DNA of 64,000 nt from NCBI RefSeq assembly GCF_900105685.1, contig NZ_LT629781.1:1488001-1552000 (forward strand), given 5' to 3'. This DNA is from Verrucomicrobium sp. GAS474 (GTDB lineage: Bacteria; Verrucomicrobiota; Verrucomicrobiia; Methylacidiphilales; GAS474). Positions 25,633 to 43,374 of this stretch are shown here, piece after piece. Each line of letters starts with the position of its first letter. Positions within the stretch are counted from its first letter, which is position 1. The translations under genes and the position numbers were made by a program. The notes under the pieces are model-generated. The model was not told the DNA's origin and did not search any database. It was given only the letters and a program-made list of their open reading frames with translations.

Positions 25633-26574
25633 TCAATGCGCGGCCGGGGTCGCGGCGAGGGCGCGGAGGAGGTTGTCGACGGCAAAATCCATCGCGCGGT
25701 CGATGCTCTCGGCGGTGAAGCCGCCGATGTGGGGGGAGGCGATGACGCGGGGATGGGCGGCGAGGGACCAGTCCTGCGGCGGCTCCCCGTCGAAGACGTC
25801 GAGGGCGAGGGCGGCGATCCCTCCGGAATCGAGCGCGGCGGCGATGGCGGCCGGATCGATGAGGTCGAAGCGGGCGGTGTTGACCAGGAAGACCCCCTTC
25901 TTCATTCCGGCAAGGGCCGCCGCGTCGATCAGGGGGCGGTGGCCGGGAAGGGGGGGGCAGTGGAGGGTGACGACGTCGGCGGCGGCGAGGAGTTCCGGCA
26001 GCGGGGCGAAGCGGAAATCGGGCGAGGGGCGGTAGGAGGCGTCGGGATAGAGGTCCTGGGCGATCACTTTCATCCCGATCCCGAGCGCCATCCCCGAGAC
26101 GAGGCGGCCGATCCGGCCGCAGCCGACGACGCCGAGGGTCTTCCCCTCCAGCTCGATGCCGTTCGCCCGTTCCCACTTCCGCTCCTTCATCCGGGCGTCG
26201 GTGACGGGGAGCCCCCGCGCGAGGGCGAAGAGGAAGCCGATGGTCAGCTCGGCGACGCCGCGGGCGTTGGCCCCCTCGGCGCGGAGGAGGGCGATGCCTC
26301 GGGCCTGCGCGGCCTCGGTGTCGACATTGTCGATCCCGGTCCCGTTCCGGCTGATGGCGCGGAGCCGGGAGGCGGCGGCGAGGACGCGGGCCGAAACGGG
26401 CTCGACCCCGGCGAGGTAGCCCTCGCAGGCGGGGAGGAGCTCCAGGAGCTCGGCCTCGCTCGGCTGGCGTCCGGCCGGCCCGAGGACGACCTCGTGCCCC
26501 GCCGCCCGGAGGCGGTCGAGGGAGGGATGGCCGCTCCGGGTGACGGAGCGGGGGGTGACGAGGATGCGGCCCAT
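25633..26574 (-). CDS. D-2-hydroxyacid dehydrogenase (phosphoglycerate dehydrogenase-like)
   Basis: A 313-residue NAD-dependent enzyme. The NAD-binding motif is GCGRIG (151-156). The catalytic set is Arg235 (VNTAR), Glu264 (DVFDGEP) and His282 (SPHIGGFT), as in D-lactate, glycerate and phosphoglycerate dehydrogenases. It lacks the C-terminal ACT domain of many SerA enzymes, so a role in sugar-acid catabolism (for example reducing hydroxypyruvate or oxidising a D-hydroxyacid) is more likely than serine synthesis. It is the last gene of a leftward unit with the cupin isomerase (34 bases) and the shikimate-dehydrogenase-like gene. The natural substrate is unknown. Confidence 0.85.
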   Translation of the reverse strand: MGRILVTPRSVTRSGHPSLDRLRAAGHEVVLGPAGRQPSEAELLELLPACEGYLAGVEPVSARVLAAASRLRAISRNGTGIDNVDTEAAQARGIALLRAEGANARGVAELTIGFLFALARGLPVTDARMKERKWERANGIELEGKTLGVVGCGRIGRLVSGMALGIGMKVIAQDLYPDASYRPSPDFRFAPLPELLAAADVVTLHCPPLPGHRPLIDAAALAGMKKGVFLVNTARFDLIDPAAIAAALDSGGIAALALDVFDGEPPQDWSLAAHPRVIASPHIGGFTAESIDRAMDFAVDNLLRALAATPAAH

Positions 26575-26608
26575 GGCGCGTGGGGGGGGGAGGGTCCGGA
26601 AGGGGGGG

Positions 26609-27190
26609 TTACTCGATCACGACCTGGCCGCCGCGGTCGAAAGCCCGCTTCGGGAAGCCTTCCTTTTCGATGTCGCCGTAATTGTGCCCGGCGTCGCCCG
26701 GATAGACGCAGAAGCTGATCAGCGGCTCGCTCCCGGTGTTGATCGAGCGGTGGCCCCAGTAGGGCGGGACGTAGACCATCCGGCCCGGGGCGAAGCGTTC
26801 CCACCGGCACTGGCCGTCGGAGGTCTTCATCATCATCAGGCCCTCGCCGCGCAGGGCGAGGTAGATCTCCCCGGTGTTGACCCGGGAATGGTAGTGGCCC
26901 TTCGTCATGAAGTACTCGTCGCCGACCTTGCCGGCCTGGAGCTTGCTGATGCAGTACATCAGGTGGCCGTATTCGTGCGGGACGGGGACCTCGAAGACCT
27001 CGTAGTGGAGGGGGTTGCCGTCGGCGACGAGGCGGTCGAAGGCGGCCTGGTCCTGGTAGTGGCCCTTCATGTCGGAGGCGCGGCGGACGAGGTGGTCCTT
27101 CGGTTCCTTCATGATTCCGGCGACCAGGTCGAAGTCGACGGCGAAGGGATCGATGAAGCGGGTCTCGGGATGGAGTTCGATGGCGGGCAT
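26609..27190 (-). CDS. Cupin-type glucose-6-phosphate isomerase family protein
   Basis: 193 residues with the cupin phosphoglucose isomerase core FMTKGHYHSRVNTGEIYLALRGEG and VYVPPYWGHRSINTG...VYPGDAGHNYGDI. The metal ligands His99, His101, Glu108 and His147 have the same spacing as His88, His90, Glu97 and His136 of the Pyrococcus furiosus enzyme. Family members interconvert glucose-6-phosphate and fructose-6-phosphate with a metal, independently of the usual PGI fold; most are archaeal. Here it sits inside a sugar-catabolic unit between a hydroxyacid dehydrogenase and a shikimate-dehydrogenase-like protein, so it may isomerise another phosphorylated or acidic sugar. Confidence 0.85.
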   Translation of the reverse strand: MPAIELHPETRFIDPFAVDFDLVAGIMKEPKDHLVRRASDMKGHYQDQAAFDRLVADGNPLHYEVFEVPVPHEYGHLMYCISKLQAGKVGDEYFMTKGHYHSRVNTGEIYLALRGEGLMMMKTSDGQCRWERFAPGRMVYVPPYWGHRSINTGSEPLISFCVYPGDAGHNYGDIEKEGFPKRAFDRGGQVVIE

Positions 27191-27219
27191 GGGAGTGGGT
27201 TGGGTGGGTGGGAGAGGGA

Positions 27220-28170
27220 TCAGCGGGCTTCCTTGGCGATCTCGGAGAGGCGGTCGAAGACGGGGCCGCGCGGGGGGATCTCCGCGTCGAAGACGTCGGC
27301 GATGACGCGGGTCCAGCCGTGGATGAAGTAGATCCAGCCGTCCTCGACGAAGAGCGAGCGGCTCTTTTCCTGGGCCCGGGCCTGGTCGAGGAAGACGAGG
27401 TTGCCGCGGTAGTTGAATTCCCAGACATAGGCCCGCTCCGGGAAGACGACGGCGTCGGTGAGGGGGGAGCCGGGGGCGTCCTTGCCGAGGCCGGTGCCGT
27501 TCACGATCAGGGAGCCGGGCGGGAGCTTCGCGACGAGGGCGTCGCTCATCTCGGCCTGGGGGACGTGGTGGATGAGGAGCTCGACGGGGGTGTGCCAGCC
27601 CGCGTGGACCTGGCGGAGGTGGTGGAGGCGGGGCGTGCTCCGGTTGGCGACATGGATGCGGCGGGGCTTGTTGGCGCCGTGGCGTTCCTGCACCAGGTGC
27701 CAGGCGAGGGCGACGGCGGAGCCGCCCGCGCCGAGGATGAGGACCTCGGCCTCGGGGTTCTTGATCCAGTAGTCGGCGGGGAGGAAGGCCTCCAGGGCGA
27801 GGCCGCTGCTGAAGGGATCGACCGCGCGGCCCAGGATGCGGCCGTCGCGCTTGTAGATGCTGCTCACCTCGCCGAGGGCGTCGGAGAAGGCGTCGATCTC
27901 GTCGAACTGGTCGCGGCAGGCGGCGCAGAGGTCGAGCTTGTGGGTGGTGACGAGCGCGCCCCGGGAGAAGGGGTCGTTCTTGATGAAGTCGACGGCGGCG
28001 CGGTAGTTCTCCGCCGTGTCGTGGAGCTTGAAGTCGATGCCGCGGAGCTGGCAGTCGCCCAGCCCGAGGGCCTGGGCCCAGAGGGGAAAGATGCGGTTGA
28101 TCGACGACTTCGCGGTGGTGACGCCGATGAAGTACATGGTCGGCTTGTCTGCGGGGGGGTAGGCACTCAT
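27220..28170 (-). CDS. Shikimate dehydrogenase-like NAD(P)-dependent oxidoreductase
   Basis: 316 residues from the ATG at 28168-28170; an in-frame upstream codon at 28224 would run through the predicted operator. The N-terminus (FIGVTTAKSSINRIF) aligns with the substrate-binding block of AroE-type enzymes, and GALVTTHK supplies Lys78. GRAVD supplies Asp118, equivalents of the catalytic Lys65 and Asp102 of E. coli AroE, although NVTxPxK and NTD are altered to LVTTHK and AVD. The Rossmann domain reads VLILGAGGSAVALAWHL and IVNGTGLG. Its place in a sugar locus rather than an aromatic-biosynthesis locus suggests a different polyol or cyclic substrate (quinate- or inositol-like); that is inference. 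Confidence 0.72.
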   Translation of the reverse strand: MSAYPPADKPTMYFIGVTTAKSSINRIFPLWAQALGLGDCQLRGIDFKLHDTAENYRAAVDFIKNDPFSRGALVTTHKLDLCAACRDQFDEIDAFSDALGEVSSIYKRDGRILGRAVDPFSSGLALEAFLPADYWIKNPEAEVLILGAGGSAVALAWHLVQERHGANKPRRIHVANRSTPRLHHLRQVHAGWHTPVELLIHHVPQAEMSDALVAKLPPGSLIVNGTGLGKDAPGSPLTDAVVFPERAYVWEFNYRGNLVFLDQARAQEKSRSLFVEDGWIYFIHGWTRVIADVFDAEIPPRGPVFDRLSEIAKEAR

Positions 28171-28218
28171 GGGAAAATCGAGGATGGGGTGGAGGGGGTT
28201 TCGGGGAAATGAAGGTTT

Positions 28219-28242
28219 GCGCAATTAAATGGTATAAATGCG
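28219..28242 (-). promoter_or_regulatory. Predicted AraC/XylR-type operator A
   Basis: Read leftward it begins with CGCATTT (complement of 28236-28242), and 21 bases on has a second CGC half-site, CGCAAAC (28221 down to 28215). The middle (TATACCATTTAATTG) matches the sites at 33337 and 35660 at most positions. It lies 48 bases upstream of the ATG of the shikimate-dehydrogenase-like gene, in the only sizeable gap of this leftward series, suggesting a second promoter there. Confidence 0.6.
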
Positions 28243-28259
28243 AAAGCGAGGAAGCGGGC

Positions 28260-29774
28260 TCACGAAGCCGCGCTCCAGCCGTGGAGCGCGTCGAGGAGCG
28301 CCGCGTAGCGGCCGATGCGGGCCTCGCCCAGCGCGGCGATCCGGGGATCGGCGGCGGGCCGGGTGCGGGCGCCGAGGACGGTCCAGCAGTCGGCGGCGGT
28401 GGCGAGGGCGGGGAAGAGCCCGACGCCGTGCCCGGCGAGGAGGGCGGCCCCGACGGGGGCGCCCCCGGCGCGGGCGATGCCGACGACGTCGGCGCGGAGG
28501 CGGTCGGCCTTGATCCGGTTCCACGGCGCGCTCTTCTCGCCGCCGCCGGTGATGCGGATTTCGCCGATCTCGAAGCCAGGCAGGAGCGCCCGGAGCGCCC
28601 GCCGGTACAGGCCGTATTCGAGCGCGACGCCCTCGAGCATCGAGCGGAAGAGGGTTCCCTCCGAGGCGTCCCAGCCGAGCCCGACCCAGCCGCCCCGCAG
28701 CGCGGGCCAGTTCGGCGAGACCCGCCCGCCGAGGTGGGGGACGAAGAACGGGAGGGAGGCGTCGCGCAAGGGATCGGCGTCGGCGACCTCGGGGAGGCGG
28801 TTCAGTTCCTCGAAGGAAAGGCGGCCCTTGAGGATCGTCCCGCGGAACCATTCGAGGTTCTGCCCGCCGCCATTCACGTAGGCGTAGGGATGCCAGAGGC
28901 CGGGGACGACGGAGGGGCCGCAGCCGAGGGTCCGCGAGGGATCGGCGATGAACTCCGAGGTCGTCGCGGCGAAGACCGAGGCCGTCCCGGCCACGTCGAC
29001 GCAGATCCCCTCGCGGGTCGCGCCGCAGGAAAGGAAGCTGGCGGCGGTGTCGCCGCAGCCCGCCACGACGGGGAGCCCTTCGGGGAGGCCCGAGGCCCGG
29101 GCGGCCTCGGACGAGATCCGGCCGACGACCTCGTGGGGGGCGACGATCCGCGGAAGCTTCCCTGGATCGATCCCGAAGCGGGCGCAAAGGTCCGCGTCCC
29201 ACGCGCGGCGGCGGGTGTCGGCGTAGCCGGAAAAGTGGAGGTAGGTGGCGTCGATGAAGGCCTCCGCGCCGTCGAGGCCGCAGAGCCGCATCGCGACGTA
29301 GCCGCCGGGCTGGACGAAGGCGTGGATGCGGGCGTAGGCCTCGGGCCGGGTCTGCTTCCACCAGAGGATCTTCGGGCCGTGGTTGAAGCTCGGGGCGTTG
29401 CCGGTCTTCCCCAGGATCTCGTCGCCCGCCTCGCGGCTCATCTCGACGATCTGGGCGCTGCACCGGGTGTCGAGCCACGAGTCGTACGGGGTGACGGCGC
29501 GGCCCGCGCGGTCGATGCCGAGGACCCCCGCCATCTGCCCGGCGATGCCGAGCGCGGCGACGTCCCGGCCCGGCTCCCCCGCCTTGGCGAGGCACTCGGC
29601 GACAACCTCGAGGGCCGAGGTGTACTGGAATTCGGGGTCCTCCTCGACCGTCCCGGGCTCGGGCCGCAGGGGACGGGAGGGGCGGAACGCCTCGGCGAGG
29701 CAGAGGCCGTCGGCGGTGTAGAGCGCCGCCTTGACCCCCTGGGTGCCGATGTCGATGCCGACGAGCGACGCCAT
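28260..29774 (-). CDS. FGGY-family carbohydrate kinase (xylulokinase-like)
   Basis: A 504-residue ATP-dependent sugar kinase. The N-terminal phosphate-1 motif is GIDIGTQGVKAALY (residues 6-19), followed by GIAGQMAGVLGID, PYDSWLDTR and, in the second half, the FGGY-type hinge VAGCGDTAASF and GVALEYGLYRRAL...ITGGGEKSAPWNRIKAD. The overall pattern is closest to xylulokinase. It would phosphorylate a ketose produced by the fucose-isomerase-like protein encoded two genes upstream. It is part of a leftward series 33275 to 28260 with short gaps, and is followed by the operator-containing gap. The true sugar (xylulose, fuculose, or another) cannot be fixed from sequence. Confidence 0.85.
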   Translation of the reverse strand: MASLVGIDIGTQGVKAALYTADGLCLAEAFRPSRPLRPEPGTVEEDPEFQYTSALEVVAECLAKAGEPGRDVAALGIAGQMAGVLGIDRAGRAVTPYDSWLDTRCSAQIVEMSREAGDEILGKTGNAPSFNHGPKILWWKQTRPEAYARIHAFVQPGGYVAMRLCGLDGAEAFIDATYLHFSGYADTRRRAWDADLCARFGIDPGKLPRIVAPHEVVGRISSEAARASGLPEGLPVVAGCGDTAASFLSCGATREGICVDVAGTASVFAATTSEFIADPSRTLGCGPSVVPGLWHPYAYVNGGGQNLEWFRGTILKGRLSFEELNRLPEVADADPLRDASLPFFVPHLGGRVSPNWPALRGGWVGLGWDASEGTLFRSMLEGVALEYGLYRRALRALLPGFEIGEIRITGGGEKSAPWNRIKADRLRADVVGIARAGGAPVGAALLAGHGVGLFPALATAADCWTVLGARTRPAADPRIAALGEARIGRYAALLDALHGWSAAS

Positions 29775-29807
29775 GGTCTTGGTTTTCTGGGGTGGCCGGG
29801 CCGCCCG

Positions 29808-30851
29808 TTAGTTGAACGAGATGGCGGTCTTCAGCCCGCCGGTCCGGCTCACGGCCCCGGCGAAGGCCTTCTGGATCTCGCCGAGGGGGTAGGTCGCGGT
29901 GACGAGGTCATCGACGACGAGGAGGCCGTCGGCGATCAGGGCGAGGGTTTTCTGGAACTGCCGGAGGCTCTGCCGGGTCGTCCCGGTGACGAGGAGCTGC
30001 TTGTAGTGGATCAGGTTCGTGTCGAGCGGGACGTGGGACTTCCCCTTCGGCAGGCCGCCGAAGAAGAGGACGCGGCCGTTGACGGCGGCGAGCTCGACGG
30101 CGCGGGCCTGGATGTCGGCGGAAGAGCAGGCGGTGATGATGACGTCGGCCCCGCGGCCGCCGGTGAGGCGCTTCAGCTCCTCGCCGGGATCGCCGCAGAT
30201 CGTGATGAAGGAGGGGTCGATCGAGCGGACGAGGGCGAGGCGGTCCTCGTGGCGGTCGTTCACGATCACCTTCCCCGCGCCGACCATCTTCGAGAGCTTC
30301 GCGTGCATCACGCCGATCGGGCCCGCGCCGACGATGAGGACGACGTCGCCGGGGCCGGTGCGCGCCTTCTCGTAGTTGTTGTAGACGCAGGAGAGGGGCT
30401 CCACCATCGCGGCGGCCGCGAAGCTGACGTGGTTGGGGATCGGGAAGAGGTTCCCCTGGAGGACGGCCTCGCGCGGGATGCGGACGTACTCGGCGAAGGC
30501 GCCGTGCTCGTGGATGCCGAGGGCGCGGTAGTCGGGATCGAGGTAGCCCTCGCCCGCGACGGTCAGCTCGGAGCTGACGGGATTGTAGTTCGGGGCGACG
30601 CAGACGCGCTGTCCGGCCTGGAGACCCCGGACCCCGGCCCCGACGCGGGCGATCGTCCCCGCCATCTCGTGGCCGATCACGAGGGGTTGGTCGGGCGTGG
30701 CGAAGGCGTGGCCGTTCTTCCACATGCGGATGTCGGTGCCGCAGATCGAGGCCCCGCCGGTGCGGATCAGGACTTCGCCCTCCCCGATCTGGGGTTCGGG
30801 CAGGGTGCCGAGGCGGAGGTCTTCTTTTTCGTAGAGGAGGGCGGCGTTCAT
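29808..30851 (-). CDS. Zinc-type medium-chain dehydrogenase without structural zinc site
   Basis: 347 residues of the sorbitol/L-threonine/galactitol dehydrogenase-like MDR group. The catalytic zinc ligands are in place: Cys37 (ASICGTD), His61-Glu62 (GHEMAG) and Glu151 (MVEPLSC). The NAD domain reads VLIVGAGPIGVMHAKLSK. The lobe that normally holds four Cys ligands for the structural zinc (residues 84-115) has only Cys84 and contains PNYNPVSSELTVAGEGYLD instead. It probably oxidises a sugar or polyol hydroxyl in the pathway encoded around it. It lies 33 bases upstream of the FGGY kinase and 55 bases downstream of the isomerase-like gene. Confidence 0.83.
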   Translation of the reverse strand: MNAALLYEKEDLRLGTLPEPQIGEGEVLIRTGGASICGTDIRMWKNGHAFATPDQPLVIGHEMAGTIARVGAGVRGLQAGQRVCVAPNYNPVSSELTVAGEGYLDPDYRALGIHEHGAFAEYVRIPREAVLQGNLFPIPNHVSFAAAAMVEPLSCVYNNYEKARTGPGDVVLIVGAGPIGVMHAKLSKMVGAGKVIVNDRHEDRLALVRSIDPSFITICGDPGEELKRLTGGRGADVIITACSSADIQARAVELAAVNGRVLFFGGLPKGKSHVPLDTNLIHYKQLLVTGTTRQSLRQFQKTLALIADGLLVVDDLVTATYPLGEIQKAFAGAVSRTGGLKTAISFN

Positions 30852-30906
30852 GAAACGAGGGGTGAGGGGTGGGAGGGATTGGGTTCGGAACGGGTCGGTC
30901 GGCGCA

Positions 30907-32241
30907 TCAGGCTTCGTCGATCCGGAGCCCGAAGATGGGGGCGATCTCCCCGATGTCCGACCCGTAGTGGCCGTGCATGAGGAGGAAGTGGTGGGAGGCG
31001 AGGCGGCTCAGGAGCTTCTTCCCGTCCTTCACCCGGACGACGCCGCCGGTGAGGCAGTCGGTCCCCGGCTGCTGGGAGTAGCCTTCGAGCTCGCCCTCGG
31101 CGACGGTCATCGTCGAGAAGTCGGAATGGATCTTCGCAAGGGTGAGGGGCCCCTCGGGGATCCGGGCGTCGATGGCGACGGCGTTCTCGTCGACGATGCG
31201 GAGGACCTTCTTCTTGAGGTTCCACTCGGTGGCGTAGGACTGGGGGATGAGGCCGGTGTAGCCGCAGTGGGCGACGAGGATGTAGTCGTCGGGGTTCCCC
31301 TTCACGGGGGGGAAAGCGGTCATCCGCTCGTGCCGCAGGGCGGCGTCGCCCATGAGGAAGGGATAGAGGTTCGTCATGAACGCGGGCGCGCCGAGCGACT
31401 TGTTCAGGATGTACTGGTTGAGCATCGAGATGACGTCGCCCTCGCAGCCCCAGATGAAGCCGCCCTCGAGGTGGAGCCGGTTCCAGGCGAGGCACGGGGT
31501 GCTGTCGCAGAAGTGGGACTCGTTGAGGCAGTTGATGCCGACGGCGCGGATCGAGCGGTCGGCGTCGAGGTCGCGCTTCACGGCCAGGTAGAGTTTCGTC
31601 GCGCTGTTGAGGGCGCGGTCGGAGAGGTCCTCCGTCGGGACGCCCCAGCTCCGGCGGGCCTCGACGGCGTCGGCGTCGGGGAGGGAGCGGGACCGCTCGC
31701 CGAGTTCCTTGAAGCTCCGCTTCTCGATCCGGATGCCGAAGCGGTCGGTCATCCGCTGGACGGCCTCGCTTTCCCACCAATAGAAGCGTTTGAAGATCGG
31801 GGCCTGCTGTCCCTCGCCGGGATTGTCCTGGTAGACGAGGAACTTCGTCCCGCGGAGCTCCGCGCGGACGCGGAGGGCGGAGAACATCTTCCGGGCCTGG
31901 GCCGGGCTGCGGGGGGCGAGGGTCGGGACGCCGGCCTCGCGGAGGTAGGTCATCAGCTCCCAGTCCCACATGGAGAAGGTGCCGAACTCCGAGGTGATGA
32001 TGAGGATCGGGAGGGTGATCGCCTTGAAGGCGGCCAGGCACCGGTAGCCCTCGCCGAGAAGTTGCGGGAAGACCACGGCGTCGGCCGCGGGAAGGGATTC
32101 CCCCAGCGCGACGGGCGGAAGGAAATCGGCGACGTCGCCGAAGAGCTCCCGCAGGATGACGAGCTGGCGGTCGAAGCCGTCGTCGCGGCCCGGTTGGAAG
32201 AAGAGAGGGACGATCTGCGGCTTCGGCTCGGTGGAGGGCAT
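30907..32241 (-). CDS. L-fucose isomerase-like protein
   Basis: 444 residues from the ATG at 32239-32241; the frame is open upstream but only antisense to the oxidoreductase. Features match the fucose/arabinose isomerase-related family: an N-terminal Rossmann-like region (ILIITSEFGTFSMWDWELMTYLR), then the hallmark AVGINCLNESHFCDSTPCLAWN and GCEGDVISMLNQYIL in the central domain, and a C-terminal domain with HCGYTG and HHFLLMHGHYG. Such proteins interconvert aldoses and ketoses with a divalent metal. The gene sits just behind a Gfo/Idh/MocA oxidoreductase (8 bases) and ahead of the MDR dehydrogenase, in the XylR-type regulated series. The substrate may not be fucose. Confidence 0.72.
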   Translation of the reverse strand: MPSTEPKPQIVPLFFQPGRDDGFDRQLVILRELFGDVADFLPPVALGESLPAADAVVFPQLLGEGYRCLAAFKAITLPILIITSEFGTFSMWDWELMTYLREAGVPTLAPRSPAQARKMFSALRVRAELRGTKFLVYQDNPGEGQQAPIFKRFYWWESEAVQRMTDRFGIRIEKRSFKELGERSRSLPDADAVEARRSWGVPTEDLSDRALNSATKLYLAVKRDLDADRSIRAVGINCLNESHFCDSTPCLAWNRLHLEGGFIWGCEGDVISMLNQYILNKSLGAPAFMTNLYPFLMGDAALRHERMTAFPPVKGNPDDYILVAHCGYTGLIPQSYATEWNLKKKVLRIVDENAVAIDARIPEGPLTLAKIHSDFSTMTVAEGELEGYSQQPGTDCLTGGVVRVKDGKKLLSRLASHHFLLMHGHYGSDIGEIAPIFGLRIDEA

Positions 32242-32249
32242 AACAGGCT

Positions 32250-33275
32250 TTAGAGGGTGACGGGCTTGCGCTCGCGGATCGACTGGTTGCCCGCGTTGAC
32301 GACGGCGACGGCGGCGCGGCCGTCCTTCCCGGCGGCGGCGGGGGGGCGGCCCTCCCGGATCGAGGTGGCGAACTCGATGTCCTCGGCGAGGTAGGCCTCG
32401 CGGAAGAGGTTCATCCACGAGACGATGGCGGGGCTCCGGAGTTCCTTCTCGCGGGTGCAGACCATGACGGTGTCCCCGCGGAGGCTCCCGATCGTGATCA
32501 GGCCGTGGGTGCCGAGGATCTCGCACCGGGCGTCGTAGGCGTACTGGACGCCCTGCGCGCCGCTGATCGAGCCCTGCGCGCCGTTCGAGAGGCGGGCCGT
32601 GAGGAGGACCTGGTCGTAGAAGTCGGGGTAGTCGGCGACGGCCTCGGGGGTCCGGTAGTTCCCGGCGATGGCGTGGACTTCGGTGAATTCCCCGCCGCTG
32701 AACCAGCGGACCGTGTCGATGTCGTGGCTGTTCACCTCGGCGAGGGGGCCGTTGCTCTTCGCGAGGTCGAACATCCACGGACGGGGGTAGCTGGGGCCGT
32801 GGGTGAGGGTCTTCACCTGGACGACCTCGCCGATCTCCCCGGCCTCGACCCGGGCCTTCGCCGCGCGGAATCCGGCGTCGAAGCGGCGCATGAAGCCGAT
32901 CTGGAGGTTGACCTTCCCCTTCGCGGCGGCGGCGATCATCGCGTCGCACTCGTCGACCCGCATCGCCATCGGCTTCTCGCAGAAGATGTGCTTCCCGGCG
33001 GCGGCGGCGGCCTCGGCGATCTCCCGGTGGAGGGAGGTGGGGGTGGCGATGACGACGGCGTCGACGTCGTCGCGGGTGACGGCCTCGCGGTAGTCGGCAT
33101 GGGCCGCCGAGGCGGGGAGGGCGAGGTCCCGGGCGGCGGTCTCGCGGGACTCGGCGACGGCGTCGGAGACCGCCGTGACGCGGGCGTCGGGGACGGAACG
33201 GGAGAAATTACCGGCGTGGATCATGCCGGCGCGGCCGGTGCCGACGATGGCGATGCGAAGGGGTTGCTGGCTCAT
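32250..33275 (-). CDS. Gfo/Idh/MocA family oxidoreductase (inositol 2-dehydrogenase-like)
   Basis: 341 residues from the ATG at 33273-33275, where IAIVGTGRAGMIHAGN follows directly. The NAD(P)-binding GTGRAG (12-17), the family signature FCEKPMA with Glu100-Lys101-Pro102, and NSHDIDTVRWFSG with the conserved Asp/His of the active site are all present. Family members oxidise or reduce inositols, sugars or sugar acids at a ring carbon. It is the first gene of the leftward series (Gfo, isomerase, MDR, kinase) and has predicted operator B 61 bases upstream of its start. It is divergent from the TIM-barrel isomerase at 33575. Confidence 0.87.
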   Translation of the reverse strand: MSQQPLRIAIVGTGRAGMIHAGNFSRSVPDARVTAVSDAVAESRETAARDLALPASAAHADYREAVTRDDVDAVVIATPTSLHREIAEAAAAAGKHIFCEKPMAMRVDECDAMIAAAAKGKVNLQIGFMRRFDAGFRAAKARVEAGEIGEVVQVKTLTHGPSYPRPWMFDLAKSNGPLAEVNSHDIDTVRWFSGGEFTEVHAIAGNYRTPEAVADYPDFYDQVLLTARLSNGAQGSISGAQGVQYAYDARCEILGTHGLITIGSLRGDTVMVCTREKELRSPAIVSWMNLFREAYLAEDIEFATSIREGRPPAAAGKDGRAAVAVVNAGNQSIRERKPVTL

Positions 33276-33336
33276 GAAAAAAATGGAGGGAAGGTCCCAA
33301 CCTGCCCGAGCGGGTTCCGTCGCCCAATGACCAATC

Positions 33337-33360
33337 GCGTAATAAAATGATACAAATGCG
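33337..33360. promoter_or_regulatory. Predicted AraC/XylR-type operator B (divergent promoter)
   Basis: Leftward reading gives CGCATTT (33360-33354) and, 21 bases on, CGCGATT (33339-33333). A further CGCGATT precedes the first half-site (33367-33361). The middle TGTATCATTTTAT is identical to that of the site at 35660. It lies in the gap between the divergent genes starting at 33275 and 33575, 61 bases before the former. Confidence 0.68.
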
Positions 33361-33574
33361 AATCGCGTTTCGCGCTCCTCTCTTATCGTCTCGCCCGAGG
33401 GCCGCCGCGCGGCGGTCCCCCTGCCCGGCGATGATTGACTTGGCGTCGCGCTTGGGAATAGCTTCCCCCAGCCGCCTCTCTCCCCGCCGCGTCCGGCATC
33501 GCGGAGAAAGGAGGTCCGCCCCCATTCATCCGAATCCTCGAAATCCACCCCCAAAAAATTCCCGGAGTCTTCCC

Positions 33575-34435
33575 ATGAAAATCGGCATCGACAGCTACTG
33601 CTACCATCGCTTCTTCGGCGAGGTCTATCCCATGCAGAAACCGGCCCCCGCGCCCTACACGATGGAATCGTTCCTCGACCGCGCCAAGGCGCTCGGCTGC
33701 GACGGCGTCTCGCTCGAGAGCTGCTTCTTCCCCGAGTTCGGGGCCGCCTACCTCGCCCGGCTGCGGACGAAGCTCGACGCCCTCGGCTTTGACCGCGTCT
33801 ACGCCTGGGGCCATCCCGACGGCCTCGAGGCGGGGGGCAACGCGAAGGCGAAGGAGGAGATGATCGCCCACATCGAGCACGCCGCCGCGATCGGCGCGCC
33901 GGTGATGCGGGTCGTCGGCAGCAGCCTCATGTTCCGCAACGCCCCGCACGAGCCGCAGCTGAAGATCCTCGCCCAATGGTTCCGCGAGGCCGCCGCCGTC
34001 GCGGAGAAGAAGGGGATCCGCCTCGCGGTGGAGAACCACATCGACTACAATTCCGACGAGATCCTCTGGCTGATCGAGGAGGTGGGCTCTGAGTACTTCG
34101 GCGTCAACCTCGACACGGCCAACTTCATCCGCGTCCTCGACGATCCGGTCGAGGCGACCCGCAAGCTCGCGAAGCATGTCTTCGCGACCCACGTGAAGGA
34201 CCTCCGCCCGGTGAAGGGGGTCAGCGTGCGCGAGTGGTATTACTTCTCCTCCGTCGCCGCCGGGACCGGCCTCGTCGAGGTCGAGTCGATCGCCCGCATC
34301 CTGAAGGAGGCCGGCTACAAGGGCTTCCTCGCCTTCGAGACCGACATGCCCCACCCCGACTACGAGGGAGAGGAAGAGCGGATGATCGAGGAGAGCATGG
34401 CCTACCTGAAGGGGGTCGCCGCCCGCGTCGGCTAA
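33575..34435 (+). CDS. Sugar phosphate isomerase/epimerase (xylose-isomerase-like TIM barrel)
   Basis: 286 residues from the ATG at 33575. The AP-endonuclease-2/xylose-isomerase TIM barrel is recognisable from MKIGIDSYCYH at strand 1, GCDGVSLES near residue 45, RLAVENHIDYNSDEI with the metal-binding Glu, FGVNLDTANF with the Asp, FATHVKD with the His, and a final FLAFETDMPHP. These enzymes isomerise or epimerise small sugars, keto-inositols or hydroxypyruvate. It leads the rightward unit with the Gfo/Idh/MocA gene at 34478 (42 bases on) and is divergent from the Gfo gene at 33275 across predicted operator B. Confidence 0.85.
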   Translation: MKIGIDSYCYHRFFGEVYPMQKPAPAPYTMESFLDRAKALGCDGVSLESCFFPEFGAAYLARLRTKLDALGFDRVYAWGHPDGLEAGGNAKAKEEMIAHIEHAAAIGAPVMRVVGSSLMFRNAPHEPQLKILAQWFREAAAVAEKKGIRLAVENHIDYNSDEILWLIEEVGSEYFGVNLDTANFIRVLDDPVEATRKLAKHVFATHVKDLRPVKGVSVREWYYFSSVAAGTGLVEVESIARILKEAGYKGFLAFETDMPHPDYEGEEERMIEESMAYLKGVAARVG

Positions 34436-34477
34436 GGCTGTCCCGTCCGTTCCATCCCAAATCAACCCATCCCTGTC

Positions 34478-35653
34478 ATGAGCAAAAAACCGCTCCGCAT
34501 CGCCATCATCGGCTACAACTTCATGGGCAAGGCCCACTCGAACGGCTGGCTCCAGGCCCGCCGGTTCTTCGACCTCGACGTCGAGCCGGTCCTCCAGGTC
34601 GCCTGCGGCCGGGACGAGGCTGCCGTCCGCGCCTTCGCCGACCGCTGGGGCTGGAAGCACGTCGAGACCGACTGGCGGAAGGCCGTCGAGCGGGACGACG
34701 TCGACGTCGTCGACATTTCGCTCCCGCAGCACCTCCATCACGACGTGGCGGTCGCCGCCGCCCGCGCCGGGAAGCATCTCTTCTGCGAGAAGCCGATGGC
34801 CCTCTCCCTCTCCGACGCGGAGGAGATGCTCGCCGCCGCCCGGAAGGCCGGGGTGAAGCATTACGTCAACCACAACTACCGCCGCTGCCCCGCCGTCCGC
34901 CTCGCCCGCCAGCTCATCGACGAGGGACGGATCGGGCGCATCTTCCATTGGCGCGGCTCCTACCAGCAGGACTGGATCGTCGATCCCGCCTTCCCTCTCA
35001 CGTGGCACTTGAAGAAGGAGACGGCGGGCTCGGGGCCGCACGGCGACCTCAATTCCCACAGCGTCGACCTCGCCCACTACCTCGTCGGCGACATCCGGCG
35101 CGTCTCGTGCCTCACCACCCGCTTCATCGACGAGCGGCCCCTGCCGGGCGCGGGGGCGGCGACCTTCAGCGCGGGGACCGGCGCCGGTCCGGTCGAGATG
35201 GGCAAGGTGACCGTCGAGGACGCCTCGCTGATGATGGCCGAGTTCGCCTCCGGCGCGGTCGGTTCCTTCGAGGCGACCCGCTTCGCGCCGGGGCGGAAGA
35301 ACCGCAACGCCTTCGAGATCTACGGCAGCGAGGGAAGCCTCGCCTTCGACCTCGAGCGGATGAACGAGCTCCAGTATTTCTCCCGCCGCGACCCCGGGCA
35401 CGCCCAGGGCTTCCGCACGATCCTGGCGACCGAGGCCTCCCATCCCTACATCGCGAACTGGTGGCCCCCCGGCCACATCATCGGCTACGAGCACGGCTTC
35501 GCCCACGCCGCGGCCGACTTCGCCCAGGCCGTCGCCCGCGACCTGCCGATCGATCCCGATTTCTCCGACGGGGTGAAATGCATCCGCGTCCTCGAGGCCG
35601 GCCTGAAGTCGGCCGCCGAGGGGCGCGCCGTCGAGACCGGCGCGGGAAAATGA
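34478..35653 (+). CDS. Gfo/Idh/MocA family oxidoreductase
   Basis: 391 residues with IAIIGYNFMGKAHSNGW at the nucleotide-binding site (Gly12, Gly17), FCEKPMALSLSDAEEML with Glu104-Lys105-Pro106, HNYRRCPAV, and GDLNSHSVDLAHYLVG holding the active-site Asp and His. It is longer than the paralogue at 32250 and matches the subgroup found beside xylose-isomerase-like proteins in inositol and sugar-derivative pathways; the two together (isomerase plus dehydrogenase) often form a pair. The substrate is unknown. Operator C lies right behind its stop codon, showing that the aldolase gene downstream has its own control. Confidence 0.87.
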   Translation: MSKKPLRIAIIGYNFMGKAHSNGWLQARRFFDLDVEPVLQVACGRDEAAVRAFADRWGWKHVETDWRKAVERDDVDVVDISLPQHLHHDVAVAAARAGKHLFCEKPMALSLSDAEEMLAAARKAGVKHYVNHNYRRCPAVRLARQLIDEGRIGRIFHWRGSYQQDWIVDPAFPLTWHLKKETAGSGPHGDLNSHSVDLAHYLVGDIRRVSCLTTRFIDERPLPGAGAATFSAGTGAGPVEMGKVTVEDASLMMAEFASGAVGSFEATRFAPGRKNRNAFEIYGSEGSLAFDLERMNELQYFSRRDPGHAQGFRTILATEASHPYIANWWPPGHIIGYEHGFAHAAADFAQAVARDLPIDPDFSDGVKCIRVLEAGLKSAAEGRAVETGAGK

Positions 35654-35659
35654 CGGCGA

Positions 35660-35683
35660 CGCATTTGTATCATTTTATGACGC
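35660..35683 (+). promoter_or_regulatory. Predicted AraC/XylR-type operator C
   Basis: CGCATTT at 35660-35666 is repeated exactly at 35681-35687, 21 bases (two helical turns) later, the spacing of AraC-type direct repeats. It lies between the Gfo stop codon (35651-35653) and the aldolase start, 92 bases before the chosen ATG at 35776 or 59 before the alternative at 35743. Confidence 0.68.
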
Positions 35684-35775
35684 ATTTCAACCATGCGGAG
35701 CCGGAGGCTCCTTTGGGATAAGGGTCTTTTCCGAACCGTCCCATGACTCCCAGCGCCCCCTCCTCCTCTCCCGCC

Positions 35776-36429
35776 ATGAACAAAGAACAGATCCTCCAGC
35801 GTCTCCTCGATCCCGGCCTCGTCGCCATCATCCGGGCCGACAGCTCCGAGGGGGTGGCCGACGCGGCGGCCGCTCTCCTCGAGGGCGGGATCGACGCGAT
35901 CGAGCTGACGATGACGACGCCCGGGGCCCTCGGCGCGGTCGCCGAGATCTCCCGCCGCTTCGGCGATCGCGTCCTGATCGGAATCGGCTCGGTGACCGAC
36001 GTCGAGAGCGCCGAGCGGGCGATCTACGCGGGGGCCCTCTTCGTCGTCACGCCGGTCTTCCGTCCGAAGGTCGTCGCCGCCTGCCGCCGCCACGGGAGGC
36101 CGATCGCCTCGGGCGCCTACACGCCGACCGAGGCCCTCGACGCGTGGGAGGCGGGGAGCGATTTCGTGAAGATCTTCCCGGCCGACAGCGTCGGGCCCGG
36201 TTACATCAAGGCCCTCAAGGCCCCGCTCCCCCAGCTGCGGATCATCCCGACGGGCGGGGTGAACCTGAAGACGGTGAAGGAGTTCCTCGCCGCCGGGTGT
36301 GCCGCCCTCGCGGTCGGGAGCAACCTGGTCTCGAAGGAAGTCCTCGCCAGGAAGGATTGGAAGACCCTGAGCGAGACCGCCGCCGCCTACGTCGCCGCGG
36401 TCCGGACCGCCCGGCAGGAATTGAAATGA
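35776..36429 (+). CDS. KDPG/KHG-type aldolase
   Basis: 217 residues from the ATG at 35776, preferred over an in-frame ATG at 35743 that adds TPSAPSSSPA. It is a class I aldolase of the Eda family that would cleave a 2-keto-3-deoxy sugar acid phosphate to pyruvate plus an aldehyde. The Schiff-base Lys132 lies in DFVKIFPAD, Glu43 in IELTMTTP, and the phosphate-binding IPTGGVN near residue 158. The Arg of the E. coli EVTLRT motif is a Thr here (ELTMTT), a variant found in many paralogues of unproven substrate. It closes the rightward unit of this locus and is preceded by operator C. Confidence 0.87.
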   Translation: MNKEQILQRLLDPGLVAIIRADSSEGVADAAAALLEGGIDAIELTMTTPGALGAVAEISRRFGDRVLIGIGSVTDVESAERAIYAGALFVVTPVFRPKVVAACRRHGRPIASGAYTPTEALDAWEAGSDFVKIFPADSVGPGYIKALKAPLPQLRIIPTGGVNLKTVKEFLAAGCAALAVGSNLVSKEVLARKDWKTLSETAAAYVAAVRTARQELK

Positions 36430-36461
36430 AGCCCCTCCCCCCGGACGGCCGCCCTCTCGTC

Positions 36462-37319
36462 TCAGCGAAGGGTGATTCGTTCCCCGCAGCGGGGGAGGAG
36501 GAACGGCTGGCCCAGGCGGCGGCACGTCGCGGCGAATTCGTCGGGCAGCGCCGTGTTGAAGGTGAACATGTCGTAGTGGTGGGGGATCGCGAGGGCCGCG
36601 CCGCAGGCCCGGGCGAGGGCCGCTGCCTCGATCCCGTTGAGGTTCCCCGCGACGCCGCGCGCCGGCTCGTTCCCGTTGATCGGGAGGAGGACGGTGTCGG
36701 GACGGGCGGCGAGAAGGGCCTCGCTCAGACCCGCGTGCCAGAGGGTGTCGCCGCTGTGGTAGAGCGTCCGCTTGCCGAGCCGGAAGACGAAGCCGAGGTA
36801 GAGATGCTCCCCCGCGTTGTTCCGCGCGAGGTCGGGATGGGCCGAGGCGATCGCCTCGACGGTGATTTCGCCGGCCTTGCCGAGGCGGATCGCGCCGCCC
36901 GCGTCGAGGGGAAGATAATCGACGGGGGCCTCTCCGAGCTTGCCCTTGGCGATGAGGATGTTCGCGGGCGAGAGGACCAGCTTCATCGTCTCCCCGCGCG
37001 CCGCCATGGCGTGGGCCAGGGGAACGAGGGTCTCGGGATCGAGGTGGTCGGTGTGGGCGTGGCTCGAGAAGACGATGGGGGAGAGGGAGGCGAGGGCTTC
37101 GGGAGCGAGGCACCGTTCGGTCATGCGGACGTGCTCCTTGTCGGTTCCCGCGTACTTCCGCGTCAGCGAATCGGAGAGGTAGGGATCGACCAGCAGATGG
37201 ACGCCGCCGCTCTTGACGAGGTAGCCGCTCTGTCCCAGCCACCAGAGATGGGACTCCTCCCCCGGGGCGGAAGCGATGTCGGCAAGGAGGGCGTCGTCCT
37301 GGAGGGCGGGGATGATCAT
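36462..37319 (-). CDS. Metallo-beta-lactamase-fold hydrolase, UlaG-like
   Basis: 285 residues. The metal-binding motif is SSHAHTDHLD, with His87, His89, Asp91 and His92. Upstream is LWWLGQSGYLVKSGGVHLLVDPYLSDS, and downstream are HLYLGFVFRLGKRTLYHSGDT and IPHHYDMF. This order is typical of UlaG, the L-ascorbate-6-phosphate lactonase. In this locus it could open a sugar lactone made by one of the dehydrogenases. It is divergent from the AraC/XylR regulator with predicted operator D between them, 48 bases before its start, so it is probably a target of that regulator. Confidence 0.83.
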   Translation of the reverse strand: MIIPALQDDALLADIASAPGEESHLWWLGQSGYLVKSGGVHLLVDPYLSDSLTRKYAGTDKEHVRMTERCLAPEALASLSPIVFSSHAHTDHLDPETLVPLAHAMAARGETMKLVLSPANILIAKGKLGEAPVDYLPLDAGGAIRLGKAGEITVEAIASAHPDLARNNAGEHLYLGFVFRLGKRTLYHSGDTLWHAGLSEALLAARPDTVLLPINGNEPARGVAGNLNGIEAAALARACGAALAIPHHYDMFTFNTALPDEFAATCRRLGQPFLLPRCGERITLR

Positions 37320-37367
37320 GAGGGCCTGAGGATGGGCCGGGGCGGTCCGAATGGCATTGAGATAAAT

Positions 37368-37391
37368 CGCAAACTTATTACACTTTTGCGC
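37368..37391. promoter_or_regulatory. Predicted AraC/XylR-type operator D, next to the regulator's start codon
   Basis: A more degenerate copy: CGCAAAC at 37368-37374 equals the second half-site of operator A, and a CGC lies 21 bases on (37389-37391). TTTTGCG at 37384-37390 also makes an inverted arrangement. It ends two bases before the regulator ATG at 37394, so binding would block the regulator's own expression, and it lies 48 bases upstream of the divergent UlaG-like gene. Confidence 0.5.
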
Positions 37392-37393
37392 TA

Positions 37394-38566
37394 ATGGCCC
37401 GCCGCCCGCCAGTCCTTTCCCGCACGCCGCACGTCGCGCTCCTGATCGAGACGTCGAAGTTCTACGGCCGCGAGAGCCTCCTCGGCATCAGCACCTATGC
37501 CCGCCTTCACGGCGGTTGGTCGATCTACGCCGTCGAGCGGGGGCAGAACGATCCCGATCCCGGCTGGCTGGCGAACTGGAAGGGCGACGGCATCATCACG
37601 CGGAGCTTCGACCTGAAGCTCTGCCGCCGCGCCCAGAAGCGGGGCATCCCCGTCGTCAGCCTCCGCCACCTCGTTCCGAAGCCCGAGTTCCCCTCCTTCT
37701 TTCCCGACCAGGTGGCGATCGCGAACCGCGTCGCCCGCCACTTCATCGAGCGCGGCGTCCGCCGCTTCGCCTACATGACGATCCCGGGGGACCGGGGATG
37801 GGAGGAGATCCGCCGCGCCGCCTTCGTCCAGGTCCTCCAGAAGGAGGGGATGCCCGCGCCCGCCATCCGCCTCCTCTCGACCGAGGCGGGGATGAACTGG
37901 GAGCACCAGGAGGGCGAGCTCGTCACCTGGCTGCGGCAGCTGCCGAAGCCGGTCGGCATCATGACGAGCCACGACGCCCAGGGACTCCTCGTCCTCGACG
38001 CCTGCCGCCGCGCGGGGATCCGGGTCCCCGACGACGTCGCCGTGGTCAGCGTCGACAACGACCCGGTCCTCTGCGAGATCTCGGCCCCGCCGCTCTCCAG
38101 CCTCGACCAGAACGTCCAGAAAATCGGCTTCGAGGCGGCGGCGGCCCTCGACCGGATGATGCGGGGCGAGGCGTGCGCGGCGAAGAATTACTTCATCGAG
38201 CCGGGCGACGTCGTCACGCGGCAATCGTCCGACGTCCTGATGGTCGACGATCCGGGCCTCGCCAAGGCGATCCGGTTCGTCCGCGAGGCGGGCGGGAAGG
38301 GGATCGGCGTCAACGACATGGCCCGCGTCGCCGGGATGTCCCGGCGGGCGCTCGAGATGAAATTCGTGAAGGTGATCGGCCGGACCCCGCTGGAGGAGAT
38401 CCAGGAGATCCGCTACCGCCGCACCCGCCATCTCCTGCTGGAGACGAACTACACCCTGCCGCAGATCGCCGAACTGGTCGGCATCCAGTACCACGAGTAC
38501 CTCGTCCGCTTCTTCAAGAAACGCTCGGGCATGACCCCGGGGGAATTTCGGCGGCGGATGGGGTGA
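37394..38566 (+). CDS. XylR-like transcriptional regulator (sugar-binding domain plus AraC HTH)
   Basis: 390 residues. Residues about 12-270 form a LacI/periplasmic-binding-protein-like domain (VALLIETSKFYGRESLLGI, GIMTSHDAQGLLVLDACRRAGIRVPDDVAVVSVDND), as in E. coli XylR. Residues about 285-388 are the AraC double helix-turn-helix (GVNDMARVAGMSRRALEMKF and YTLPQIAELVGIQYHEYLVRFFKKRSGMTPGEFRRR). It should bind a sugar or sugar phosphate and activate or repress nearby genes by contacting direct repeats. Four candidate sites occur in the 9.2 kb to its left, one at its own start. The inducer is unknown. Confidence 0.87.
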   Translation: MARRPPVLSRTPHVALLIETSKFYGRESLLGISTYARLHGGWSIYAVERGQNDPDPGWLANWKGDGIITRSFDLKLCRRAQKRGIPVVSLRHLVPKPEFPSFFPDQVAIANRVARHFIERGVRRFAYMTIPGDRGWEEIRRAAFVQVLQKEGMPAPAIRLLSTEAGMNWEHQEGELVTWLRQLPKPVGIMTSHDAQGLLVLDACRRAGIRVPDDVAVVSVDNDPVLCEISAPPLSSLDQNVQKIGFEAAAALDRMMRGEACAAKNYFIEPGDVVTRQSSDVLMVDDPGLAKAIRFVREAGGKGIGVNDMARVAGMSRRALEMKFVKVIGRTPLEEIQEIRYRRTRHLLLETNYTLPQIAELVGIQYHEYLVRFFKKRSGMTPGEFRRRMG

Positions 38567-38659
38567 GGAAAGCTCTTCCGGTTTCCCCAGCCTTTGGAAG
38601 CGTAGTTCCTCCCAAGCGGACAAACCGCCCCTTCGCGACCCCTTCCCAATCTTCTCAGC

Positions 38660-39058
38660 CTAGCCGATCGGTCGCGCCGCGATCACCAGAAGCCGGAGAT
38701 CCTCGGTCCCCGTGTTCTTCAGCCCGTGGAAGCCGTTGGCGAAGCAGCCGCTGACGTCGCCCGGCCCCATCGGATAGTCCTTCCCGTCGAGGGTCATCAC
38801 GCCGTGGCCGGAGAGGACGTAATACCATTCCTCGAACGGCGTCTCGCTCGGATGCTGATGGTAGCCGATCGAGGTGCCGGGCGGGAGGATGTCGTCGTGG
38901 ATGTAGCGGATGAAGTGCTTGGCGGGGAGCTTCTCGATCAGGTCGCGGCAGGTGACGGTGCCGACGCCGCCATGGCATTCGCCGAACGCCTTCGCCGCGA
39001 TCTCCCGGTCTTCGATGAAGAGGGTGGTCGATGGAGAGGGGGCAGGGCGGGTGCTCAT
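38660..39058 (-). CDS. Small cupin-domain protein
   Basis: 132 residues from the ATG at 39056-39058. One cupin-2 barrel is visible: PPGTSIGYHQHPSETPFEEWYYVLSGHG has the His, His and Glu metal ligands, and PMGPGDVSGCFANGFHGLKN has the last His. Such proteins are sugar isomerases, dioxygenases or sensors. It is third in a leftward group with the TIM-barrel isomerase and MDR protein, 23 bases behind the latter. The function is not determinable. Confidence 0.78.
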   Translation of the reverse strand: MSTRPAPSPSTTLFIEDREIAAKAFGECHGGVGTVTCRDLIEKLPAKHFIRYIHDDILPPGTSIGYHQHPSETPFEEWYYVLSGHGVMTLDGKDYPMGPGDVSGCFANGFHGLKNTGTEDLRLLVIAARPIG

Positions 39059-39081
39059 GGCGGCGAAGGGGTGTCGGAGGA

Positions 39082-40056
39082 CTAGCTGCGCCAGTCGAAG
39101 AGCGCGGCGGGGGTGGGGAGGCTTTGGTCGAGGAGGCCGCTGTAGACTTTCTGCGCCTCGGAGGGGGCGTAGCAGGAGGCCATCCCTTCGAGGTTGATCC
39201 GGCCGGAGGCGATCCACTCGATCGCGGCGCGGTAGTTCTCGATGAGGGAGTTCGGGCGGAAGTCGGTCGGGTGGCCCGGGACTTCCCATTCCCAGCCGCT
39301 GCGGAGGACGGCGTACTTGTGGAAGACGGCGTGGAGGATGTCGAAGGCGGCGAGGTCGGTCCGCTTCCGCCAGGGGACGCCGACCATGACGACCTCGCCC
39401 CGCTTGCCGACCGCCTTGCAGCCGTCGAGGACGGCCTGCTCGTGGCCGCTGCACTCGACGTGGAGGGCGATCTGGCCGACGATTTCGGGGGCGCCCCCCG
39501 TGGCTTCGAGCGAGGGGCGGACGTCGGCGAGGCCCATCTTCCGCGCGCTCTCGCGGCGGCTTTCCACGGGGTCGACGGCGGTGACGCGGTAACCGCAGGT
39601 CGAGAAGATCTGCGCCGCGAGGTTCCCGACCGGGCCGAGGCCGGTGATCAGGACGCGGGCGGGAGGCCGGGCCGTGGTGGTGGTGAGGGTGCTCATGCTG
39701 ACGCCCATCAGCCGGGCGAAGACGGCGGCCTCGGGGGCGAGGCCGGCGGGGAGGGGGACGGCGTCGGCGCGCCGGACCTGCTGGGTGTCCCGGTGGCGGC
39801 CCGAGGCGTAGACGAGGGTGCCGGGGGCGATGTCGGTGACGTCGGAGGCGACCTCGTCGACCCGGAAGACCGAGGCGTAGCCGGGATAGCCGGGGAAGTG
39901 TTCCTTGCCGAGGAAGCCCCAGTTCAGCTCGGTGCCGGGGCTGGTGAGGGAGATCACCGTACGGCCCCGGATGTCGCCGGGGTTGAGGGGATCGGTCAGG
40001 TCGGGGAGGTCGACGACTTCGGCTTGGCGGTGGGCGGTGAAGGCAACTTGTTTCAT
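39082..40056 (-). CDS. Medium-chain dehydrogenase/reductase-like protein
   Basis: 324 residues from the ATG at 40054-40056. The nucleotide-binding motif VLITGLGPVGNLAAQIFSTCGY sits mid-protein, with ALHVECSGHEQAVLDGCK and GKRGEVVMVGVPW later, as in bacterial MDR enzymes. At the N-terminus the usual catalytic C-G-x-D and GHE blocks are replaced by SLTSPGTELNWGFLG and PGYPGYASV, so a classical catalytic zinc site is absent. This is the pattern of the zinc-independent MDR subgroup associated with sugar-derivative metabolism. It is the middle gene of the leftward trio 40919-38660. Confidence 0.78.
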   Translation of the reverse strand: MKQVAFTAHRQAEVVDLPDLTDPLNPGDIRGRTVISLTSPGTELNWGFLGKEHFPGYPGYASVFRVDEVASDVTDIAPGTLVYASGRHRDTQQVRRADAVPLPAGLAPEAAVFARLMGVSMSTLTTTTARPPARVLITGLGPVGNLAAQIFSTCGYRVTAVDPVESRRESARKMGLADVRPSLEATGGAPEIVGQIALHVECSGHEQAVLDGCKAVGKRGEVVMVGVPWRKRTDLAAFDILHAVFHKYAVLRSGWEWEVPGHPTDFRPNSLIENYRAAIEWIASGRINLEGMASCYAPSEAQKVYSGLLDQSLPTPAALFDWRS

Positions 40057-40082
40057 GGGATCGTGGGTCGGGTGGGGTGGGG

Positions 40083-40919
40083 TTACTTGAACCGGAGGCC
40101 GTTCTTCTTCGCGACGGAACGGATGTAGTCGGCGGCGATCGGGTATTCCTCCATCGGGAGGTGTTCCATGTAGAGGGGGATGTCGGGGTCGAGCTTGTCG
40201 AGCTCGCGCAGGTAGGCGCCGAAGTCGAGGAAGCCGGTGCCGGGGCGGCATTCGTCGAGGTGGACCGTGAGGTTCTCCCGCAGGATGATGTCCTTCGCGT
40301 GGCAGCTCTTGATGTAGGGCCCGAGCTTCGCGAAGCAGTCCCGGATGAAGTCGCCGTTGCGGTAGTAGCGGGCCGGGGTGTTGATCATGTTCACGGGATC
40401 GAGGTGGACTCCCATCGCGGGCCGGTCGACCGCCTTGATCAGGGCGAGGTACTCGTCGGGCGAGGAGGGGAAGATCCACGGCATCGTCTCGAGGCAGTAG
40501 AAGGTCCGCTTCGGCTTCACCGCGTCGATGATCTCCCGCGTCGTCTGGACGACCATCTCGAACGTCTCGTCGGAGAAGTTCTCGGGATGGGGGCCGTCCC
40601 ACTTCTCGGGGTTCCGGGAGCCGACGATGTTGACGCAGCAGCGCGCCCCGCTCCGCTCCGCGAAGGCGAGCTGGGTCTTGCACTTGTCGAGCGCCGCCTT
40701 GGCCTTCGCGGGATCGGCGTCGATCGGGTTCGACCAGGCGCCGACCTCGGCGACGACGATGTCGGCTGCCTTGGCCGCCTCGAGGAAGGTGGCGAGGACC
40801 GCGTCGGAGACCTCGTGGTTCAGGGGGAGGTTCGCCCCGCCGTAGCCCGCGTTCTTCACGTTGGCGATCCACTCGGCGGGATTGGAGGGGCTGCCGCTAT
40901 TGGGGCCGCTCAGGCGCAT
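40083..40919 (-). CDS. Sugar phosphate isomerase/epimerase (TIM barrel)
   Basis: 278 residues from the ATG at 40917-40919; the upstream in-frame extension is not family-like. TIM-barrel landmarks are NAGYGGANLPLN near the start, ADIVVAEVGAWSNPIDADP, TFYCLETMPWIFP with the metal Glu, MGVHLDPVNMINTP with the Asp, SCHAKDI with the His, and PLYMEHL at the end. It is first in a leftward group (isomerase, MDR protein, cupin) and is divergent from the AraC-family gene at 41069, which probably regulates it. The reaction is unknown. Confidence 0.83.
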   Translation of the reverse strand: MRLSGPNSGSPSNPAEWIANVKNAGYGGANLPLNHEVSDAVLATFLEAAKAADIVVAEVGAWSNPIDADPAKAKAALDKCKTQLAFAERSGARCCVNIVGSRNPEKWDGPHPENFSDETFEMVVQTTREIIDAVKPKRTFYCLETMPWIFPSSPDEYLALIKAVDRPAMGVHLDPVNMINTPARYYRNGDFIRDCFAKLGPYIKSCHAKDIILRENLTVHLDECRPGTGFLDFGAYLRELDKLDPDIPLYMEHLPMEEYPIAADYIRSVAKKNGLRFK

Positions 40920-41068
40920 GGGACTCCGTTCGAAAAGGGAAGGATTTGCATCGGTCGAGGATGGGGCCTTTTCTCCTTTTCGGCCATGCCTGGTTCGATT
41001 ATAGATATATCCAAAACAACTGCGCCTCTTCAAGTCCCCTTTCGTTCCCTTTCCGGCGCCACCCCGAA

Positions 41069-41899: not shown

Positions 41900-41903
41900 G
41901 GCT

Positions 41904-43328: not shown

Positions 43329-43374
43329 CTTTTGGGAAGGGGTGGAGATGGGAGTCTATTGAATGGTCACAAAT

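Follow-up and report, generated by a model that had tools for sequence, protein, structure and literature searches.

Genome-unique tandem sites in Verrucomicrobium sp. GAS474 are putative operators of a XylR-type activator

In the genome of Verrucomicrobium sp. GAS474 (3,763,444 bp), the three tandem sites designated A, B, and C are genuine and specific, and we regard them as probable operators of an AraC/XylR-type activator acting as a dimer, the likeliest candidate being the XylR-like protein encoded at 37394 (Table 1; site coordinates are those of the window, the 64-kb stretch of DNA that was analyzed). A preliminary description had delimited these sites and a fourth, D, as 24-bp elements with CGC trinucleotides 21 bp apart. 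All four stretches were found at the positions given there, with CGC-N18-CGC in 4/4, but the true unit is longer: a tandem of two 15-bp half-sites, CGCATTTnTAYCATT, 21 bp apart and 36 bp in total, each half-site consisting of the two boxes CGCATTT and TAYCATT.

Table 1. Features of the locus, with positions in the 64-kb window
Feature	Position	Strand	Sequence or description
D-2-hydroxyacid (phosphoglycerate-type) dehydrogenase, pgdh	25633–26574	−	Behind A
Cupin-type glucose-6-phosphate isomerase	26609–27190	−	PF06560; behind A
sdh, divergent AroE/shikimate-dehydrogenase-like	27220–28170	−	First gene behind A
Site A, tandem	28207–28242	−	CGCATTTATACCATT + (21 bp) CGCAAACCTTCATTT; upstream of sdh-cupin-pgdh, ATG 28170
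Site A, 24-bp frame	28219–28242	−	CGCATTTATACCATTTAATTGCGC
FGGY carbohydrate kinase	28260–29774	−	Behind B
Zinc alcohol dehydrogenase family (adh)	29808–30851	−	Behind B
Orphan ORF, 444 aa, C terminus faintly L-fucose-isomerase-like	30907–32241	−	Fucose_iso_C E 0.022, below cut-off
gfo1, Gfo/Idh/MocA dehydrogenase	32250–33275	−	First gene behind B; 59–60% to L156/L157
Site B, tandem	33325–33360	−	CGCATTTGTATCATT + (21 bp) CGCGATTGGTCATTG; upstream of gfo1-fucI-like-adh-FGGY, ATG 33275
Site B, 24-bp frame	33337–33360	−	CGCATTTGTATCATTTTATTACGC
TIM-barrel isomerase/epimerase + Gfo/Idh/MocA dehydrogenase pair	33575–35653	+	Site B 215 bp upstream, facing away
Site C, tandem	35660–35695	+	CGCATTTGTATCATT and CGCATTTCAACCATG, exactly 21 bp apart; upstream of KDPG/KHG-type aldolase gene
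Site C, 24-bp frame	35660–35683	+	CGCATTTGTATCATTTTATGACGC
KDPG/KHG-type aldolase	35743–36429	+	Behind C; alternative start 35776
MBL-fold (UlaG-like) hydrolase	36462–37319	−	Behind candidate D
Site D (candidate)	37355–37391	−	CGCAAAAGTGTAATA and GCGATTTATCTCAAT, 20 bp apart; facing MBL hydrolase ATG 37319
Site D, 24-bp frame	37368–37391	+	CGCAAACTTATTACACTTTTGCGC
XylR-like regulator, 390 aa	37394–38566	+	LacI-type sugar-binding domain + AraC-type HTH; Pfam Peripla_BP_3, HTH_18

The tandem is clearest in site C, where CGCATTT is repeated at 21 bp, as had been described, and where the second copy of the half-site (35681–35695), positioned at exactly +21, lies mostly outside the earlier 24-bp frame. 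Site C thus comprises two good half-sites (strong-strong), whereas A and B combine a strong distal with a weak proximal half-site; the first 19 bases of B and C are identical. A scan of offsets from 14 to 32, using a matrix made from the distal halves only, returned 21 as the best offset for all three sites (background percentiles 0.009 for A, 0.016 for B, and approximately zero for C), which bears out their description as AraC/XylR-type direct repeats. When the 15-bp unit is sought genome-wide with up to two mismatches, 11 inexact matches are found, of which only the one in site C is paired with a good second copy at a distance of 21 bp. An AraC/XylS dimer operator is expected to consist of two similar, directly repeated half-sites with a period of about 21 bp; C shows this in full, and A and B show it with the proximal half weak. 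As far as it can be computed from sequence, the site architecture fits AraC/XylS dimer sites in every respect.

The three sites share one orientation, in which CGCATTT reads toward the downstream start codon. The reported distances of 48–61 bp to the start codon were reproduced (A, 48 bp; B, 61 bp; C, 59 bp to ATG 35743, or 92 bp if the alternative aldolase ATG 35776 is used), and, measured from the 3′ end of the tandem, the ATG follows after 36 bp in A, 49 bp in B, and 47 bp in C. A promoter search identified no clear −10/−35 elements downstream of A–C, and no Shine-Dalgarno sequence is visible before the start codons behind them (3/3). Across positions 25633–44302 of the window, a Shine-Dalgarno sequence is missing before most start codons of the locus, which have C-rich leaders instead.

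Specificity was assessed by pattern searches of the whole genome with CGCATTTNTAYCATTTNATKNCGC, allowing up to three mismatches and using the reversed pattern as a control. Exactly three matches were obtained, namely A, B, and C, each matching perfectly; none was obtained with the reversed control at up to three mismatches. The matrix scores within the window show the same separation, with A–C at 43–48 and the next best position at 10.3. In 386 other Verrucomicrobiota genomes, searched with up to two mismatches, there were six scattered single matches versus four for the control; the one inspected closely (genome L128) is inside a gene. In contrast, the generic pattern CGCAWWW-N14-CGCAWWW, with up to two mismatches, gave 169 genome matches versus 210 for its reversed control, so that CGC spacing alone has no predictive value and is no evidence in this GC-rich genome. 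The further claims that the sites are confined to one locus and are hard to explain by chance hold for A–C, for which the genome scan proposed at the time yields no other copy; the case for D is weaker.

Site D does end 2 bp before the xylR ATG, in agreement with the report that it touches the start of the regulator gene, and it overlaps a predicted sigma-70-like xylR promoter. It fits better on the minus strand, where its halves score 5.8 and 11.1 but are 20 bp apart, and where it lies 48 bp from the ATG of the MBL hydrolase. A matrix made without D places it 16th among 127,954 window positions, and its best score is reached in 20/1000 shuffles of the AT-rich gap in which it lies. A pattern widened to admit D matches only A–D in the genome, with 0.01 matches expected in the window, although this pattern derives from all four sites and is therefore circular as support for D. 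Pairs of this kind arise often in locally shuffled windows, and D is therefore only a plausible candidate, weak and not significant alone. A further weak tandem, candidate site E (25491–25526, minus strand; CGTAAAAGTCCCATT / CGCATTCGTCTCTTA, 21 bp apart), is located 69 bp upstream of the ATG (25421) of an 841-residue ORF with a PEP-CTERM-like tail, and its first half resembles the first half of D. Promising at first as a fifth site, E proved to be within chance by local shuffles; in locally shuffled windows, at least two pairs as good as D and E occurred in 6/40 trials.

The pathway enzymes encoded at the locus comprise a Gfo/Idh dehydrogenase, a Zn-alcohol dehydrogenase, an FGGY kinase, an AroE-like dehydrogenase, a cupin isomerase, a 2-hydroxyacid dehydrogenase, an MBL lactonase-like hydrolase, and a KDPG-type aldolase. 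The distribution of this pathway is patchy in Verrucomicrobiota and on alphaproteobacterial plasmids. Within the phylum, sdh is present in three more distant genomes (L156, L157, and L158; 57–62% identity), and it recurs on rhizobial/roseobacter plasmids (57–59% identity); among 60 relatives in the order (two from the same genus), no gfo1 or sdh orthologues were found at the thresholds used. In L157 and L156, gfo1-adh-FGGY-sdh-cupin-pgdh-mbl are arranged in a single gene run, and in L158 the copy is partial; on the plasmids (NZ_CP119567.1, CP010863.1, and CP090106.1), isomerase-aldolase-sdh-pgdh-mbl occur together, with an FGGY kinase gene in the vicinity. The single operon in L157/L156, together with the one plasmid cluster, identifies the genes fronted by the sites as one pathway. 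Those pieces that are separated from gfo1-FGGY in GAS474, i.e. the sdh unit, the aldolase, and mbl, are each preceded by a site or candidate, which provides the strongest independent argument for A–C (and D) constituting one regulon; for D, its position before the split-off mbl is the only extra argument.

The rhizobial/roseobacter PGI-eda-AroE-like-PGDH-MBL cluster and the L156/L157 operon have the same enzyme set as the GAS474 locus. The rhizobial clusters differ in containing a SIS-domain protein within the run and in lacking the motif and the XylR of this locus. Neither the CGCATTT motif nor a nearby XylR was found in the other carriers of the operon (L156–L158 and the plasmid clusters), and site conservation at orthologous loci is absent (L156–L158; upstream of XylR relatives). 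Upstream of gfo1 in L156 (8081–8300) and L157 (14100–14260) there are GAAAGCA-like repeats, which suggests that the operon is under a different regulator in these genomes.

The orphan ORF within the unit behind B has no relative at E ≤ 1e-30 in 387 genomes of the phylum, no PDB match, and no plasmid match, and BLAST shows no similarity between it and the fucose isomerase of L157; a single-sequence AlphaFold model (pLDDT 35) was uninformative. The TIM-barrel and Gfo/Idh/MocA pair is faced by no good site and is probably a separate module. An adjacent pair with 59% identity to it is present on a Spirosoma oryzicola plasmid, beside SusCD, GH5, and GH140 genes. Next to the locus are genes for a cupin-AraC (41069–41899) and an IclR (43433–44302) regulator, accompanied by those for a TIM-barrel protein, an alcohol dehydrogenase, and an ADP-ribosylglycohydrolase-like protein.

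The 37394 protein aligns over its full length with E. coli XylR (4fe7; residues 9–386, E 1.1e-47), with both domains in the same order, and is in these respects of the XylR type. Phylogenetic footprinting of the DNA upstream of 22 XylR relatives revealed no tandem of the A–C type, and the relatives of the regulator (36–47% identity) have neither the pathway genes nearby nor the motif upstream. The second HTH of the 37394 protein departs from the consensus of these relatives (GIQYHEYLVRFFKK versus GF.HPEYLSV.FKR), and this divergence may explain the private motif.

Regulators of the E. coli XylR type bind two AT-rich direct repeats (PMC12125979). E. coli XylR (PDB 4FE4/4FE7) resembles the 37394 protein in the fusion of a LacI-type sensor to an AraC-type HTH, but its xylA/xylF operators serve different genes, whereas the sites described here consist of CGCATTT boxes, and the genes checked here include no xylose isomerase or xylose transport genes. 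In the xul locus of Vibrio, one XylR-type activator, XylRA, likewise has several direct-repeat sites across a sugar locus (PMC12125979). That system concerns xylan/xylose genes in Gammaproteobacteria, and its binding and xylose affinity were shown experimentally (PMC12125979), whereas the regulon proposed here is predicted from sequence. The two-box direct repeats, the 21–22 bp period, and the combination of a strong distal and a weak proximal half are shared with the tandem half-sites of AraC, XylS, and MtlR, although box sequences and sensor domains differ. For example, the XylS site, TGCA-N6-GGNTA-N6-TGCA-N6-GGNTA, has a 21-bp period; a stronger upstream half has been described for MelR, RhaS, and MtlR, and for MtlR the weak proximal half has been argued to make binding ligand dependent (PMC4514859).

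By analogy with these systems, the AraC-type double HTH of each monomer would read one 15-bp half-site through its CGCATTT and TAYCATT boxes, and the head-to-tail arrangement of two half-sites 21 bp apart would accommodate a dimer. Binding of a sugar to the LacI-type domain would lead the dimer to occupy both halves adjoining RNA polymerase, which the promoter-proximal monomer would touch, such that three units would be switched on jointly: gfo1-fucI-adh-FGGY (B), sdh-cupin isomerase-hydroxyacid dehydrogenase (A), and the aldolase (C). In A and B, the weakness of the proximal half may render binding ligand dependent, as for MtlR, and D may exert weaker control over the MBL hydrolase, with perhaps autorepression of xylR. 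If RNA polymerase is positioned right beside the tandem, 36–49 bp from the ATG, the mRNA leaders would be very short or absent. The sites with their uniqueness, 21-bp tandem structure, and common orientation, the domain architecture of the regulator, and the membership of the fronted genes in one conserved pathway are direct observations, whereas we infer that the sites are bound, that binding activates the genes, that a sugar is the ligand, and which regulator is responsible. The adjacent 37394 XylR-like protein is most likely the binder of A–C; a second AraC-type gene is present at 41069.

That second gene defines the closest alternative, in which the operators are AraC-type but serve the cupin-AraC protein or some other AraC-type protein encoded in the genome. 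In the 41069 protein, whose gene lies in the same region, an AraC HTH is combined with a cupin sensor domain, and both kinds of protein bind tandem half-sites. We nevertheless consider this alternative unlikely: the gap before its gene (40947–41068) has no good half-site, the best in 40901–41100 scoring 8.8, and it is the XylR-like gene that adjoins those of the MBL hydrolase and aldolase and is abutted by candidate D. A different nature for the shared element, as a core promoter (e.g. of an alternative sigma factor) or part thereof rather than an activator site, is more improbable still. The conservation of approximately 20 contiguous bases with no variable spacer, the recurrence at +21 in C, the failure to find a −35 partner for the element, and the presence of three copies in 3.76 Mb, too few for a sigma factor, outweigh its AT-richness, its location 48–61 bp before start codons, and a TTTTAT/TTTAAT string that might be taken for a −10. 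It is hardly credible that A–C are leftovers of a small repeat or of a recent duplication of promoter DNA with no regulatory function; the 19-base identity of B and C could be read in this way, but likeness among the copies ends at the half-site edges, they occur on both strands and without exception in start-proximal gaps, facing a gene each time, and there is no further copy anywhere in the genome.

Our literature searches turned up nothing about this enzyme set or about XylR regulons of Verrucomicrobiota, nor any account of DNA sites for XylR-type regulators in the phylum. With A–C read as operators of the XylR-type activator, the mechanism is already known, and what is new is the private motif and the apparently unnamed pathway placed under such an activator. 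We tentatively suggest that this pathway, split here into several units, may have come under a XylR-type activator via newly evolved 21-bp tandem sites, its relatives appearing to use other regulators. The locus offers a small, concrete, and testable predicted XylR-type regulon in a phylum with numerous such regulators, and, by connecting genes that encode a conserved enzyme set, would narrow the search for the sugar.
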